This document shows, piece after piece, positions 2,084 to 26,981 of a stretch of 64,000 nucleotides of DNA; positions within the stretch are counted from its first letter, which is position 1, and the number at the start of each line of letters is the position of its first letter. Position numbers and translations under genes: made by a program. The notes beneath the pieces are model-generated. The model saw only the letters and a program-made list of their open reading frames with translations. It did no database searches and was not told the origin of the DNA. The stretch is from a virus. The stretch is taken from the IMG/VR virus record IMGVR_UViG_3300032285_001029, positions 62,001 through 126,000 of that record. One strand, written 5' to 3'.

Positions 2084-5000
2084 TTAACGATGGAACCAGT
2101 GCTTAGTAAAATATAGCCACGATGATTCATTACCGTCTACTCCTCCAGCTGCTCCTTCAATTGACACTTTATTGGCCATTTTTACCGAACTTCCTGGAAT
2201 TCCTTGTGTAACTGTGCTGGTTATAAGATTCTGACCGCCTAATACCACAGTACCTGCGCTTACTTGATTAGTCACCACATTCGATCCGCCTTGACTTAAT
2301 CTATTAGCAATATATGTTCTAATAGCCTTTTGAGTGACAATAACACTGTCACTATTAGCAATTAAGGTAGGATCAGTGCTAATTTGGCTGATAACTACAC
2401 TTTGACTACCTACTGCAATACCGCCTAATGTTAACGATGTTAAACCAGTTAAACCAAATTGGCTGGCACTTAGTGTTACAATACCCGTAGCCTGTTGTAC
2501 TCCAAAGAAACTACCAACTTTGAAGTTACCATCTTGGTCTGTACTAGTGTAAAACACTCGTCCATAATTTATTTCAACCGTTTGATTCTGTGCTTGCAAA
2601 CTAGTGTCAGCTGGAACATCTGGGTAGCCTGATTGGTATTGATCGCCATACCCTATGTTTAAGAAATCATGTCCAGTTAAGCGAACTTGACTATACTTCT
2701 GTCTAATTACTACACTAATAGCATTTGTAGGAGCTAATGCTGTACTTAATGCTGGATTCAAACCAATTATAGCGGTAACATTCGGTGCTGTACTGTTATT
2801 TAAAACAGTAACACTAGTAATTTTATAAATGTTACTGTTACCATTAATAACTAAATCACTACCAACGGATGGCTGGTACGTCATATTTGATAATATTAAG
2901 TTATAGGAATTTTGATAATCTTCGGAATAGCCAGCACCTGAAGTTGTTATAGTTGTAGTGTTTACATTATAACCTACACCTCTGCTTAAGAATATTGGAT
3001 TTGCTAATGAGCCGTTGCCAATAAGCTGAGATGTCACTGCACTCTGTGTAGAGTTTGTATCATATAATGTTAGAGTTGGGGCTGAAGTATAACCTGATCC
3101 TGGTTCCCATGAGGTAAATCCTGTTACAATACCACTTGTTATTGTTGGTCTAGATTTAGGTTTTGCTCCTGCACTGATGTTAGTTACATAATTGTTGCCA
3201 CCTACTGTAACAAATAATCCAGTATATGAATCGTGACCTAACGTGTATGTCATTACAGGAGTTAAAATTGCTGTAGTTCCTGATAAACTATCAGTTACAA
3301 CAATAGTTGGAGTTTCTGTATATCCAACTCCAGCACCTGTTAATGAGAATCCGCTAACCTGACCGCTTGGATTAATAGTTACCGTAGCCGTTGCCTGTTG
3401 TGTTACAAAAGGACCTCCTCCTGTAAATCTCAATGTAGGTGCTACACTATAGCCCGATCCTGAACTGGTTATAGTTATACCTGTTACAGTTCCATAGTTA
3501 ACTGCAGTGTAACCAAACGCCATTGCAGTATAAGTAAACCCAGTTACAGATCTTTGTTTCCATACAATACCGTCTTCGGTGGTATATGCTAAAATATTTG
3601 CATCACGGATTGCAACAAATACACCTTGCCCGTATTCGATGCTAGTTGCCCTGACAACATACGGTGATTGGACCCATGTAATTCCATCTAAGCTATATGC
3701 AGGTTTTGCATTTGCACCTGATGATACAGCAACAAATCTGCCATTACCATAAGACACACTAGACCAAGTTGTGCTAGATGGTAAACCATTACTAGCGACC
3801 CACGTTTGTCCATCTGTACTATATGCCGATGTTGTTCCACCTGATGCAATAGCTACAAAAGTACCTGCGCCAAACGCTAAACTAGTCCAAGTTGTGCTAG
3901 ATGGTAAACTAGCAGCAGACCAAGATTGACCAAAGTTAGTGCTGTATGCAGCTTTATTACTTGACGCAGCATTATCGATTACAACAAACACACCATTACC
4001 ATATTCTACACTGCCCCAAGTTGCTTGACTAGGTAGTGTAGTTTGTCTCCAACTATCTGTTGGTAATGTTGTATAAAGAGCGGTTGAATTTCCTACACCA
4101 CCACTACTTACTAATACCCAATAACCATTGCCGTAGGCTATTCCAGTCCATGTTGCCACTACTGGAAGAGTGATTGACGACCATGTTTCTGCATCTGTTG
4201 AACCAACCAAGTAGCCTATGCCACTCGGAACACCAATCCAATAACCGTCTCCATATCCAATAGCTGTCATCCCAGCACCTTGTGTTGGAAAACTAGGCAG
4301 TGTCTGTGAGAACGAAGGAGCAGAATAAATCGGTCTTGGTTCAACGTAATACGTTGTGGTAGTGTCTAATAACGTAGCAGCAGTGGTTCCTGGAGTAATA
4401 TGATCCCACCCTGATACAACCATCTGCATACTATCGCCGGATGTCCCTACTGAAACTGCCGTTGATCCGCCTGCCGTTGATGCTAGTGTAATTGTGTTTG
4501 TTCCACCTAATGTAACAGTCTTAATATAATAAGTAGTGCCTGCCGTAATACCGGATATGTAGGATGAATTAAACAATGCTGTAGCAGATCCTTTCGATGA
4601 CACTAACAACGTCTTATTAGGAGTTGTAGTAACAGTCATCGATCCACTGCCTGTAGTTAATGTCAAATCACTACCAGTAGTTTCGACATTTAGATAACCA
4701 GTTGCTGTTGATAACGTAGCTACTGTACCTGTAGTAACTGTTTTTCCTGTCAATGTTCCTGAAGTTTGTGTTGTTAAAGTTACATCGGAACCTGTAGTGT
4801 TTACGGTTACTATAGAACTAGTATTTGCAGTGACTAATGGTAAATCACCGCCGCCTGATGTAGCACTAATCTTGATTGTAGTCGGAGTTAGTATAGCAGA
4901 AATATAGTATACAGTTCCCGAAACAATGTTACCAACAGTTTCACCGTAGAATATAATAGGATTGTTTAGTACAAAATTCAAGGAAGACAGGACAGTGATT

Positions 5001-8000
5001 ATATTAGTACCAGAAGTTGTACCAGTCATTTGTGTTGATAAAATACTTGTACTAACTGTAAATGTTGATCCTGAAGGAATCTTACTTATGTAATACTGTG
5101 TAGTTGTTGACAATCCACTACCTACTAATCCTGTACCACTAAATGTGATAGGATACAAAGGAACTAAACTAGTAGTTGTACTAGTAATATAGTTTGTTGT
5201 ACTAGCGGTTGCAGTACAAGTAATATTTAATATGGCGCTACTTGTTGCAACTTGGAATTGGGTAGAGTTAGGAATGTTAGACACATAATAAATTGTATCT
5301 ACAGATAGACCTCCCATTGTAATTCCTACAAACTTCACAGGATTACCTATAACAAATCCGCTAGTTGATGTACATGTAATTAAGTTTGCACCTACTAGTG
5401 TTGCTGAGGCTATTGTCTGATTTAATGTATTACTAATTGTAATATGTGAACTGTCAGGAATCAAACTAATATAATATTTTGTGTTTAATTGTAAGCCGCC
5501 TATCGCAGTACCTGTAAAAATAATCGGAAATAACGAAACTATGCCAGCTGTCGTTGTTACCGTTAACTGATTACTTACGGCAGTTGTTGCCGAAGCTGTA
5601 GTAGTTGTTGTACCTGACGATATTGTAAAATAATGACTATCCTTTATGTCATTAACATAATAAATTGTTCCTGCGCTAGTTCCGCCTAACGCTGCACCTG
5701 TAAACTGAATTTGCATGTTAGGTTTCATGTATGTCGTAGAATCTGCATACATGTAGCTAGTCCCGGAAACTACATTCATTATCATACTGCCAGTGCCTGT
5801 GACTAAAAATACAGGAGTTCCGTATATCGATGTCGAAACTTGGAAAGTATTTCCTGATATGTTTGTAATATAATAGGTAAAATTGTTAATAACACCGCCA
5901 TACAGTCCGCTATATTCGAACGTGACTGGCATGTTTTGATACAACTGAGTGATATTAGTAGTTGTCATTGTGTTAGTCTGACCACCCGTAACCGAAGTAA
6001 TTACAACGGTTGCTTTGGAAGTAGACGTAACTGTTGCTGAATATACTGTTGGATAGAATGATACCGGCATGTCTGTATACAACAGATTAGTATCAGCCGA
6101 ACTATCTAAATATAATTCATTTGTTGACGATGTGCTACCAGTAATTTTTACTGGATCATATGATTCTTTAGCGACGTAAGCATATCCATTCACATCATCG
6201 TAATAGGAAATTAGTCCGTATTGACCTACTCCTGTACCACTAGTTAAAAATACTCGCAAACCTAAATATGTGCTACTTGCAGCCGTTTCCGATCCGGCCA
6301 ACGTGACATACGATGTGTTTCCGCCTTGTGCATTGTTGCTGCTAGTTTTGTAACCGGCACCACCAACTTGATCTCCTGTACCTGGATCAATAATTCTACT
6401 TTGATAAACTGCACCTGATCTAATTTCATTAGCAACACTTGATACACCGCTACCTGATCCTGTTACTAGAAAGTCTGCGTATGCGCTGTATTTTTGAGTA
6501 TCAGTGCGTAGATAAAACTTAGGTGTTGTTTGATACGGATTATGTTCAATTTGTGGACCATACACATAGTTATATGCAGATACTGCAGTTGCATATCCTG
6601 CAACATAGACGTAGAAGGTACATAAATTATTAAGACCTGATACATCGTAAGTGGTGAAGTAAAGTCTATTCCAACTGTTATTACCTTTAATAATCCCAAC
6701 ATTTAACGGAGTTATTGCACCGGTTAAGGTAGTTGTATAAGTTAAAGCACTTAGATTGTAATCAATTCTTGTTGTGTTAGAACTTACTCCGCTGAATACA
6801 GTTGACAAAGAAACTGTTGATGCTGTACCGGCTTTAACATAAACACTAAATGTGTATTTTTGTTTAACTGTGTTTGGAACTGTCCCTGTTGCACTAGCAA
6901 CTGTAATTGCTCCTGAAACTGCAGTATCTACGTTAATTGTAATATCATGCAGACCTAATAATCCGCCAACTGTATTACCACTAATTAATATCTTATCGCC
7001 AGTATTGTAACCTGAGCCGCCAACTGGACTTCCTGTAATTGCACTAACTACATACCCTGCTGCTGTTACAGAGATAGTAAACGTAGCACCATTGCCTGTA
7101 CCAATAATATTAGAACCACTACGCCCTGTATAAACGTTACCTGAAGGAGTAATGTTGATTGCTTGGTAAATTGATCCAGAGTTGGCTGCTACATTAGTTT
7201 TGGTCAATTGCCATGCATATAGTCCACCAAATGGATCTGTACTATTTTGTAAGTATGTTACATATGAATCGTCGGCCCAACCAGTTGATGTTAAATTGTT
7301 ACTGTTCTTTAATAGATTAAGTACTTGCTGATTGTAAAACTTACCGTTGTTAGAAAACTGATATTTTAAAACTTGAGCACTTAGCCCTTGTACTGTTTGT
7401 AAAGTTGGAGTAACACCGTAGTATCTATTATACGTCACAGCAGTAATTGGTGTTTCGTTAACGTCAAATCCTTCGGCGATAACACCATATGTACCATATG
7501 AGCTGTTACCATTAGTAGCACGAATACGTCCACCATTTTCTGCAAAATAACCAGCATAACCAAAGTAACTGAAAATACTAACAAGTTCAGTTAATGCACC
7601 GGTATTAGTACACCATGCACCGATACCATCATTTATAATATGAGTATAGTCGTTAGCAACAATAGATTTATTACCGCCGTTATGTAAACTACCATCAATT
7701 TTTAATCCTGTGCATCCTTGACCAAATGAACTTACATTTTGAATGTAAGGAGATTTATAAGAGATCCATACAGTAGTATCAGCTGGTCCTGTTCCTGGAT
7801 CTAAACTTACAAATGCACCGCCAGTTGGACGTTGTGTGCCTAACGAGTTAGTAGTTCCTAACGTGCCTAGTAATCCAGACATTGTCATGTTGCGAATGCC
7901 GCTGCCATTTCTCACATAAAACATATTTGAAATAGCATCGCCGCCTATGACTTGAATAAGTCCACTGCCGCCGAGTAATGTCGATGCTGAACCATTTGGG

Positions 8001-23904: not shown

Positions 23905-25872
23905 TTACATGCCAGTACGACTATTTGAAACTCCAGATGCAACATGTTTTAATTGAGTAACTTGTTTATCTGCAATATTTACTAACTGGCCCATGTATGT
24001 ACTTATCTGCATCATGTGTTGTTTCAAGTCATTAAGGCCGCTATTATTGTCAACTGCGGGCATTTGAATAGTTGGCGCAGGTAACGTAGGCATCGCTGTT
24101 TGAGCTGACGATATTTTGGTAGCAAACGTTTCCATCATAGGCATAAACTGACTCATTGCCGAATTCATTTGTCCTTTAATTTGATTAATATTGATATTCT
24201 TACTTGAATCAAATATTTGAGAAAATTGATCCTTAGTTAGTACAGTTTCGCCTTTATGAACTTTGCCAAAAAAATCATCGGGTTCAAACAGTTGCCCTGT
24301 CATACCTAATGTACCAAGTGCTCTTTCTTGTTTTCCAACATTCCGTGTAACAACTCCTGATCTCTCCTTGGGCGGCACTGCAGCTTTAGGAGCGCCAGGT
24401 GTCTCTCCACTAAGTCCTTTATAAATTTCAGACCAGATGCTTCCTTGCTCTGACATTATGCTCTTGTTAGTATCTAATATTTTTTTCAAATCTGCTTGAT
24501 GATCTCCGGCAAATTTATTAAACTGTTTAAACATAGTGTTAAATTCTACACCTGTATCATAAATTATGTTTTTAGATGCATTAAGTGTACGTTGTAAAGC
24601 AGCATTAGGATCTTCTAATGCTGCTTTTTTCTGCTCAGCAGTTGCTTTTTCTCTCGCTATTCGAGCTTCTTCAGTTGTTTTTATTTCGCCTTGTCTAGCT
24701 GCAGTTATTTGATCATTTAATGCTAAGTTCTTAGTCATACTTTCATTGTACATTTTAAGAATAGCATTACGTTGCTCCTGAGGCATACCTGCATCACCTC
24801 TTGATGCTTGCTGAACTAGTCTTAAAAATTCAGGATTAGTTATTTGTTTATTGTATTCTTCGGTAAACTTAGCTTTGGCTTCTTCGACCCCTACTCCTGA
24901 TTTAACTGCGGCACTGTATTCTTGCAATGCAATCCCAGCAGGACCTAACGCTGTAACTAACTGTGCATCCATTTGATTTGTAATAGCACCGCCAGTTTCT
25001 TGTAAATGCAAACCAAGATCTGTTATAGATTCTCCAAACTGACTCATGTTTGCCATGCTTTGTATTGCTCGCTGTTGTTGATCTTTATCTAATCCTGCTA
25101 AGTAGGCACTTACGTCGGCTTTTGCCAGCTCCTTCTTCAATCCTTCTTCAACTTGTTTCCTACTCATACCTGTTGCTCGGGACAGGTCGTCGATTTGTGT
25201 AGTAAGCATACCAGCCGATTCTATAAGAGCATTTTGTCCTACTGTTGTTCTAGCATCGGCTGCTCGCATACCCATTGTTGAAATTAACAGTGCGCTGTTT
25301 AAATCTTCTGCTGATCCGCCAGCAAGTAAAAATTGATTTCCTAAATCTGATGTTTGAACATTACGAGATAATTCTAAAAATCGTTTTGAACTATCGGATG
25401 CAGTTAGTCCTAGCCCTTGAAGTTGTATAGAATTTTCTTTATTAAATCTAACATAATCGTCCATGGTCATACGAGCACCACTGACAGAAGTTGCAAAGTC
25501 TCCTAAATTGCCACCAAAGTATGCTCCTTGATCTGCAGCTTTACTCAACGAATCATTATAGAGATTAATTACTCCGCCACCTTTTTCCAACGCATTGGCA
25601 AAAACTCCGCCTACTACTGGGATTGCACGTAACGGTTCTGCGACTAGAGAAACAGCATCATTCAGATTGAACGTGCCAATTGTTAATTTTTGAAAAGCAC
25701 CTGTTAAAGCATTAGCTGTACTTGTTACGGGTTTAAATAAATCGTCAATAAATCCAGTAACGCCACCGCCGGAACTTCTACCGCCGCCGGAGCTGCTGCC
25801 ACCGGACGAACCGGATCGCGATTGATCTCTCAAAACTTGTGTTAGTTCTCGTACTTCATCTTCAAGTGCCAT
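23905..25872 (-). CDS. Tape-measure-like tail protein (gp29 analogue)
   Basis: A 655-residue, mostly helical protein. A Gly/Ser/Arg-rich N-terminal linker is followed by a mid-size helical body (LAGGSAEDLNSALLISTMGM, QIDDLSRATGMSRKQVEEGL, and long Lys/Glu/Gln stretches). The segment GKVHKGETVLTKDQFSQIF near residues 540-560 matches a motif commonly seen near the C-terminus of tape-measure proteins. A hydrophobic Ala/Val/Gly stretch lies at about 75-105. The length is close to T4 gp29 (590), the baseplate-hub tape measure. It faces the gp26/gp51-like chaperone gene across a short divergent promoter region, which supports a tail role. The identification rests on composition, motif and context. 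Confidence 0.65.
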   Translation of the reverse strand: MALEDEVRELTQVLRDQSRSGSSGGSSSGGGRSSGGGVTGFIDDLFKPVTSTANALTGAFQKLTIGTFNLNDAVSLVAEPLRAIPVVGGVFANALEKGGGVINLYNDSLSKAADQGAYFGGNLGDFATSVSGARMTMDDYVRFNKENSIQLQGLGLTASDSSKRFLELSRNVQTSDLGNQFLLAGGSAEDLNSALLISTMGMRAADARTTVGQNALIESAGMLTTQIDDLSRATGMSRKQVEEGLKKELAKADVSAYLAGLDKDQQQRAIQSMANMSQFGESITDLGLHLQETGGAITNQMDAQLVTALGPAGIALQEYSAAVKSGVGVEEAKAKFTEEYNKQITNPEFLRLVQQASRGDAGMPQEQRNAILKMYNESMTKNLALNDQITAARQGEIKTTEEARIAREKATAEQKKAALEDPNAALQRTLNASKNIIYDTGVEFNTMFKQFNKFAGDHQADLKKILDTNKSIMSEQGSIWSEIYKGLSGETPGAPKAAVPPKERSGVVTRNVGKQERALGTLGMTGQLFEPDDFFGKVHKGETVLTKDQFSQIFDSSKNININQIKGQMNSAMSQFMPMMETFATKISSAQTAMPTLPAPTIQMPAVDNNSGLNDLKQHMMQISTYMGQLVNIADKQVTQLKHVASGVSNSRTGM

Positions 25873-25932: not shown

Positions 25933-26754
25933 ATGGCTATAAATCCCTTACAAAAGTACTTTCGTCAACCAAAAGTCTATATCAGTTTACCTAGTAAAGG
26001 TGTGTATTACTCTGCAGGAAATTTACAAGGTAACATTGAACAGATACCAGTATACGGTATGACAGGCATGGACGAAATTATGGCTAGAACTCCGGATGCA
26101 TTATTATCAGGAGAAAGTACAATTAAGATTGTAGAGAGCTGTTGCCCTACTATTAAAAATGCTTGGGAAATTGTAACTATTGACTTAGAAACTATACTAA
26201 CTGCTATTAGAATTGCAACGTATGGTAACTTGTATGGAGTAGAAACAAAATGTCTACAGTGCGGTGAAGAACACGCTTACGACATCGACTTAAATCAATT
26301 TATAGATCATTATAAGAATTGTACTTACGAAAATAAAGTAGTGCTAAAAGACTACACTATCAACTTACGCCCTATTACGTATAAAGAAACGTCGGAGTTT
26401 TCAATAAAAAACTTTGAGATACAACAAAAGTTTAAGCAAGTTAATCAGATGCCCGAAGGCGATGAGAAAAAACTTATAAGTGATCAGCTGTTTAAAGATA
26501 TTGTACAACTACAAAAAGAAATCTTCAGCGCAGGAATTGAATCAGTTGAAGCAGGTTCCCAGACAGTTAATGAACGTTCTTATATTAACGAATGGTTAGA
26601 CAACTGTGAAAAATCTGTATTCGATCATATCAAACGGCAATTGAATACAATTAATAAAGAATGGACACCGCCTGCTACAAAAGTAAAATGCACAGCATGT
26701 GGGCATGAACAAGAAGTGTCTGTTACATTGGATCAGTCTGATTTTTTCGTCTAA
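25933..26754 (+). CDS. 26: gp26-like baseplate hub / tail assembly protein with zinc-ribbon Cys pairs
   Basis: A 273-residue protein starting MAINPLQKYFRQPKVYISLP. The N-terminal GVYYSAGNLQGNIEQIPVYG and GMTGMDEIMARTPDALLSG segments resemble T4-type baseplate hub assembly proteins (gp26 family; family call from memory). Two Cys pairs, CLQC at 107-110 and CTAC at 253-256, could bind one zinc. The last codons are GAT TTT TTC GTC TAA. The TTTTTTC heptamer and a following 14-bp inverted repeat predict that some ribosomes shift -1 and continue into a gp51-like 77-residue extension. A late promoter (TATAAATA) lies 29 nt upstream. It sits opposite the tape-measure-like gene, the usual partner of such chaperones. 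Confidence 0.7.
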   Translation: MAINPLQKYFRQPKVYISLPSKGVYYSAGNLQGNIEQIPVYGMTGMDEIMARTPDALLSGESTIKIVESCCPTIKNAWEIVTIDLETILTAIRIATYGNLYGVETKCLQCGEEHAYDIDLNQFIDHYKNCTYENKVVLKDYTINLRPITYKETSEFSIKNFEIQQKFKQVNQMPEGDEKKLISDQLFKDIVQLQKEIFSAGIESVEAGSQTVNERSYINEWLDNCEKSVFDHIKRQLNTINKEWTPPATKVKCTACGHEQEVSVTLDQSDFFV

Positions 26755-26804
26755 GCCTAATTAAATTAAACAACGAAGAAATTAGCGAGTATTTAATTAG
26801 GCTT
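26742..26804 (+). promoter_or_regulatory. Programmed -1 frameshift signal
   Basis: The heptamer T TTT TTC (26742-26748) lies in the zero frame of the gp26-like gene, three codons before its stop (counting the stop). It is followed after 4 nt by a perfect 14-bp inverted repeat, AAGCCTAATTAAAT (26753-26766) with ATTTAATTAGGCTT (26791-26804), around a 24-nt loop. Opening the first pairs would give the more usual 5-9 nt spacing. This is the standard architecture of a bacterial-phage -1 frameshift site. Confidence 0.85.
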
Positions 26805-26981
26805 GAACAGTTTATATCTAGATTCAAAGAAGAACTACTTAGAGTAAGCTGGTATATGAGGGGTTCAGTTACTTACGATCAAATGCTATATCAGTACAGT
26901 TATGATGATCGTGCAGCAATGTATGAAGTAATCAAAGAAAATATTGAAGCTACTAAAAACTCTGGAATGCCGTTAATTTAA
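26748..26981 (+). CDS. 51: gp51-like frameshift extension (77 aa, -1 frame)
   Basis: The -1 frame after the shift reads RLSLIKLNNEEISEYLIRLE, continues as helix, then WYMRGSVTYDQMLYQYSYDD and ends NIEATKNSGMPLI, stop TAA at 26979-26981. The frame is open back to a stop at 26739 and has no ATG, GTG or TTG before the conserved-looking core (first ATG is in WYMRG), so independent initiation at a normal start is unlikely. The texture (W-Y-M-R-G-x-V-T-Y, then NIExTKxxGxPL) recalls T4 gp51, the baseplate hub assembly catalyst. As a fusion the product would be 349 residues. The stop abuts the convergent gene's stop. Confidence 0.75.
   Translation, partial: RLSLIKLNNEEISEYLIRLEQFISRFKEELLRVSWYMRGSVTYDQMLYQYSYDDRAAMYEVIKENIEATKNSGMPLI

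Follow-up and report, generated by a model that had tools for sequence, protein, structure and literature searches.

Comparative analysis of a probable programmed -1 frameshift in a putative tail chaperone gene of the gp26/gp51 family in phages

In phage lambda, the chaperones gpG and gpGT are made in a ratio of about 30:1 short to long form and are absent from the finished virion, and their gene is located directly upstream of the tape measure gene in the same operon. Frameshift devices of this sort have been described before in tailed phages, and T4-like phages are among them. A 2016 review describes the tail-gene frameshift of long-tailed phages as widely conserved 'except T4' (PMC5009743). 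The tail chaperones of T4-like phages were identified by Vladimirov, Gautam and Davidson (2022, Virology 566:9-15). According to the papers that cite this work (PMC10885494, PMC12846349), the mechanism there is not frameshifting; in the PRFect paraphrase of it, some T4-like phages have one short gene and one fused long gene (PMC10885494). We infer that the chaperones of the 2022 study, as represented in these citing papers, are gp26 and gp51. According to the paper on phage Adele, TAC-N genes in T4-like phages are known to contain poly-T slippery sequences. For the tail chaperones of the Pakpunavirus Adele and the Vandenendeviridae, its authors inferred by comparison a -1 frameshift at a poly-T site, a likeness to the locus described here, whereas the conserved motif is GTTTTT, the phage families are different, and the account given there reports no hairpin covariation (PMC12846349). 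One source (PMC3004832) lists both T4 gp26 and T4 gp51 among hub assembly chaperones, which fits the chaperone role proposed below.

The locus and its neighbourhood

The window analyzed in this work, from an uncultivated phage of the T4 type, is a stretch of 64,000 nucleotides, positions 62,001-126,000 of the IMG/VR record IMGVR_UViG_3300032285_001029 (141,855 bases). Its features of interest are as follows.

25933-26754, plus strand: 0-frame gene from the ORF list, 273 aa, PF12322; proposed as short-form tail assembly chaperone (TAC-N)
26742-26748, plus strand: slippery heptamer T TTT TTC, in frame, found in the sequence; identical in 87/87 loci and in 80/80 cyanophage-type contigs
26752-26754, plus strand: 0-frame stop TAA, found in the sequence, which the shifted ribosome would avoid; an equivalent stop lies 1-6 codons past the heptamer in all 87 loci
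26753-26804, plus strand: predicted stimulatory stem-loop (arms 26753-26766 and 26791-26804, loop of 24 nt), based on covariation and fold z-scores
26748-26981, plus strand: -1 frame coding region that would add 77 residues, giving a proposed long form (TAC-NC) of 349 aa; open in 87/87 loci, with codon-position entropy and a helical model as further evidence
23905-25872, minus strand: divergent neighbour, 655 aa, putative tape-measure gene, assigned from its place between the portal gene and the gp26-like gene and from the RaK2 annotation

The PF12322 gene ends in GAT TTT TTC GTC TAA, where a single codon separates the heptamer from the stop. In the -1 frame a TGA occupies 26739-26741 and the next stop is the TAA at 26979-26981, and the predicted fusion, recomputed, has 272 + 77 = 349 residues. 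An earlier note, made from the sequence alone, had described the in-frame heptamer, the open frame, a fusion of this length, and a perfect 14-bp inverted repeat 4 nt past the heptamer, and each of these was confirmed. Bare TTTTTTC is found in the window at the chance rate (20 occurrences vs 19.9 expected), and for this reason conservation was used as the test. What makes the heptamer significant is its phase and where it lies, together with the open -1 frame and the fact that 87/87 loci conserve it.

The 273-aa protein matches PF12322 ("T4_baseplate"; E-value 1.5e-18, 67.7 bits against a cut-off of 24.5) and PHROG 150 (baseplate hub; 8.3e-19). Its AlphaFold model (pLDDT 88.6) matches T4-like baseplate hub assembly proteins with E-values down to 6.5e-22, and a search of the PDB by sequence and by fold gave no significant match. 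The gene is present in a single copy in the record, which may be incomplete, vs two copies in T4, and the -1 extension likewise occurs once.

The 655-aa neighbour has no Pfam match and is probably the tape measure gene, judging from its position and from the RaK2 gene at the equivalent position, which is annotated as similar to tape measure protein. The earlier note had placed the PF12322 gene facing a tape-measure-like gene; the neighbour is there, and the arrangement is more exactly head-to-head, or divergent, and some 60 bp separate the two start codons. The neighbour lies on the opposite strand in 49 of the 75 loci that have enough upstream sequence. This divergent order differs from the single operon of lambda; moreover, no sequence homology to gpG/gpGT was found, and in the window a hairpin accompanies a slip site that reads T-TTT-TTC. 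Neither the sequence search nor the fold search of the PDB brought up lambda gpG, a negative of little weight, as the chains searched may not include a gpG structure.

Conservation of the slip site, the hairpin and the -1 extension

The comparison set of 87 loci consists of the window, six cultivated jumbo phages (Atu_ph07, CBB, RaK2, PA5oct, 121Q, and XbC2) and 80 IMG/VR contigs. The earlier note had proposed a comparison of homologues for the heptamer and the open frame, and both were found throughout: an in-frame TTTTTTC lies 1-6 codons ahead of the 0-frame stop in 87/87, and the -1 frame is open in 87/87 over 72-79 codons (79 for the window's clade, 72-78 for the jumbo phages). The relatives with the conserved site have 41-54% protein identity, and the jumbo phages 26-30%. 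At the site 100% of Phe-Phe pairs read T-TTT-TTC, vs 7 of the 194 pairs (3.6%) in the rest of these loci. In one contig (L036:3426-4252) the gp26-like gene has an internal in-frame stop near the C-terminus (after ...FDAVKNKI), possibly a sequencing error, with the heptamer and the -1 frame intact.

The fold of the window has a z-score of -2.64 over 96 nt and of -3.44 over the 80 nt past the heptamer, and for all 87 loci the median fold z-score is -2.73 just past the heptamer vs about 0 at five control offsets. The stem is found at a common place in 57 of 68 representatives, with a spacer of 6 nt to its conserved part. The pair counts given here cover these 57 loci, chosen for having the stem, and the 11 others were set apart after inspection. 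Among the 57 relatives, 84% of cells are paired in the stem; double-changed cells number 40, vs 14.9 +/- 3.0 in shuffles (0/500), a count that ignores relatedness; and the covariation score is 0.258 at the stem vs at most 0.090 when the stem is slid by 1-3 columns. RNAalifold recovers the hairpin unaided. Two column pairs illustrate the covariation, again in counts over the 57 relatives that ignore relatedness: A21 occurs with T54 in 6/7 vs 2/50, the T54 change in the other arm being mostly a synonymous Leu change (CTA to CTT), and G19 occurs with C56 in 4/4 vs 0/53.

The standard hairpin is not at this position in 11 of the 68 representatives (L067, L068, L072, L076-L078, L081-L084, and L086), where the heptamer is intact, and the consensus fold of these 11 loci is empty. 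In two of them (L084 and L076), by eye, the 5' arm GGCTTCT... appears to pair with a 3' arm farther downstream than elsewhere. The six jumbo phages have different or no clear hairpins. In Atu_ph07 (L001) a very strong nested structure past the heptamer, from about position 4817 (-33.4 kcal/mol, z -7.3), is the strongest among the named phages examined.

In the region past the heptamer, the codon-position entropy of the -1 frame is 1.00/0.57/1.39 (68 representatives below 90% identity). Such variability of the third position with conservation of positions 1 and 2 is the pattern expected of a translated -1 frame. The extension residues F1, F2, R3, L6, and K29 are invariant. As the earlier note had observed, the -1 frame of the window has no early ATG, GTG or TTG; an ATG first appears at extension codon 39. 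None of these codons precedes extension residue 8 in 79 of the 87 loci, and none precedes residue 36 in 42 of the 87. Because 79 of 87 loci have no early start codon, and the window none before the 39th codon, little room appears to be left for a separate start of the extension. The extension is predicted to be all-helical (structure model, pLDDT 90). It has no meaningful match on its own in Pfam or PHROGs and no significant match in the PDB by sequence or by fold.

Relation to T4 gp26/gp51 and occurrence in other phage groups

PF12322 takes in both T4 gp26 (208 aa; 8.8e-64) and T4 gp51 (249 aa; 3.9e-52), which on profile evidence makes them paralogues, and the whole 0-frame protein is therefore homologous to both. 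A direct hhalign comparison of the gp26-like alignment with T4 gp26 or gp51 gave weak partial matches only, and hence the link rests on the PF12322 profile. The earlier note had called the extension a gp51-like protein, an assignment that we replace: the extension appears to correspond to the C-terminal tail of gp51, and the products should be described as a gp26/gp51-like domain with or without a gp51-type tail, not as a gp26-like protein joined to a gp51-like one. Residues 200-246 of T4 gp51 match the -1 extensions of cyanophages (E-value 2.4e-5), the cyanophage extensions match those of the jumbo phages (1.9e-4), and the window-clade extension aligns with the jumbo ones (25% identity to CBB). 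Window-clade and cyanophage extensions align in hhalign over six columns only, with no direct profile match. The window extension thus appears to be related to the gp51 tail indirectly, through a chain of links via the jumbo phages.

The earlier note also suggested that the T4-type 26/51 pair may be the same device as lambda G/GT. The -1 frameshift and the lambda analogy are supported; T4 itself does not rely on the device, having two genes, and its gp26 gene ends in GAG TTC TTT, without the heptamer. As judged from these sequences, T4 encodes its short form and its C-terminally extended long form in two paralogous genes that lie on opposite strands, the extension in gp51 being fused in one frame, whereas the window phage would make both from a single gene with a -1 site.

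The baseplate hub genes of the six jumbo phages are homologous to the window gene and have the in-frame TTTTTTC and the open -1 frame as in the window; the synteny with the portal and putative tape measure genes holds in all of them except Atu_ph07. GenBank treats each as a simple single gene and either omits the extension or labels it as a separate hypothetical protein. Truncated pieces of the extension are so annotated in Atu_ph07 (4930-5052), L002 (4870-5046), and L005 (4837-5046), and none is annotated in RaK2 (L003). CBB_250 does not appear among the entries consulted in the CBB virion mass-spectrometry table, in a source whose text numbering appears inconsistent, and this observation was left out of the evidence.

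The PF12322 genes of S-PM2, P-SSM2, KVP40, and PhiW-14 end with T-TTT-TTC followed by an open -1 frame, and those of Cr30, phiM12, and HTVC008M have T-TTT-TTT (T7). A second IMG/VR scan with cyanophage-type sequences yielded 80 marine contigs (L113-L192), all of which contain TTTTTTC with a stop one codon later and, apart from contig-end cuts, extensions of about 60-68 codons. A Shine-Dalgarno-like GAGGG lies about 10-15 nt upstream of the heptamer in 68 of these 80 loci vs 0 of the 87 loci of the window set; the Glu codon at that place is GAG in 68/80, vs 48% elsewhere. This element appears to resemble the stimulator of dnaX frameshifting.

Three outlying phages have other arrangements. In Rhodothermus phage RM378 (L110) the PF12322 gene ends in TCC TTT TTT TGG; the frame that stays open past this end is +1 (or -2), possibly a different shift direction at the T7 run. 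In Sphingomonas phage PAU (L111) an extension-like ORF starts with ATG ATG past an AAGGAG-like sequence right at the stop, and the extension may be a separate gene there. In Salmonella phage Vi01 (L104; Ackermannviridae) the open -1 frame encodes the extension-like GYSIFEISESMPW, and the classical heptamer is absent (GAA ATT TTC ATT TAA).

Proposed mechanism, alternatives and implications

It is very probable that the single-copy PF12322 gene makes a short and a long tail chaperone by a hairpin-stimulated -1 slip at T-TTT-TTC. The slip site, the frame, the hairpin, and the coding status of the extension are well supported by the comparative sequence evidence, and programmed -1 frameshifting as a whole is well supported because of the site and open frame in 87/87 loci, the covarying hairpin, and the 80/80 cyanophage-type set. 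From these data we infer that frameshifting actually takes place, at a useful rate, and that the products act as chaperones in the manner of gpG/gpGT. Most ribosomes would terminate at 26752-26754 to give the 273-aa short form, whereas the hairpin at 26753-26804 would hold up a smaller number of them, which would slip back one base on T-TTT-TTC, with tRNA-Phe re-pairing as TTT TTT, and would read the -1 frame to 26981, yielding a long form of 349 aa. If the pair behaves like gpG/gpGT, the short form in many copies and the long form in few would cover the tape-measure protein, with the extension serving to bring in subunits of the tail tube or the hub, and both forms would leave before completion of the virion.

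The extension could instead be a small gene in its own right, with translation beginning by re-initiation or at a start codon of its own past the gp26-like stop. The arrangement in some relatives favours this reading, including an ATG at extension codon 5 (0-based), just past the 0-frame stop, in 67 of 80 cyanophage-type loci, the annotated downstream ORFs of 121Q and XbC2 that overlap the stop, and the SD-like AAGGAG ahead of the ATG in PAU. Re-initiation would accordingly seem harder to exclude in the cyanophage-type clade than in the window's clade, because an ATG usually lies just past the stop. For the window we consider a separate gene unlikely: extension residues ahead of the first possible start at the 39th codon are conserved, most of the 87 loci similarly have no start in the first residues, and re-initiation needs neither the absolute conservation of T6C nor a covarying hairpin 6 nt downstream.

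The homopolymeric slip site would also suit RNA polymerase slippage, by which mixed mRNAs would reach the -1 frame at the level of transcription, but in bacteria such slippage usually takes a run of about 8-9 identical bases, whereas 87/87 and 80/80 loci have exactly six T and then a C, and a covarying hairpin at a spacer of 4-6 nt fits a ribosomal stimulator; polymerase slippage is thus very improbable. That the inverted repeat is a terminator or a chance feature, the heptamer a chance occurrence, and the downstream frame a decayed gene has in its favour the chance frequency of TTTTTTC in the window, but no T run is found 3' of the stem, the arms sit within the conserved coding region, and chance is excluded by the conservation, the covariation, and the coding signature, which makes this combination hardly credible.

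A broader view, to which we give about equal weight for and against, is that the -1 shift in the PF12322 gene is ancestral and near-universal in T4- and RaK2-type phages, that T4 replaced its product by duplication, and that the stimulator was exchanged between lineages, with the covarying hairpin in the window's clade and, in the cyanophage clade, hairpins together with a Shine-Dalgarno-like GAGGG some 10 nt upstream. The covarying hairpin, the breadth of occurrence, and the lineage differences may be new additions to what is known; if unreported, the exchange of stimulators and the purely comparative proof would be new. The natural covariation makes the stimulator testable, and the data also imply that the long form of the chaperone is missing from the database entries of many phages of the jumbo and T4 types. 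T4 has long been the stated exception, and together with the 2022 chaperone work, the device found intact across much of the remaining group suggests that T4 lost it upon gene duplication.
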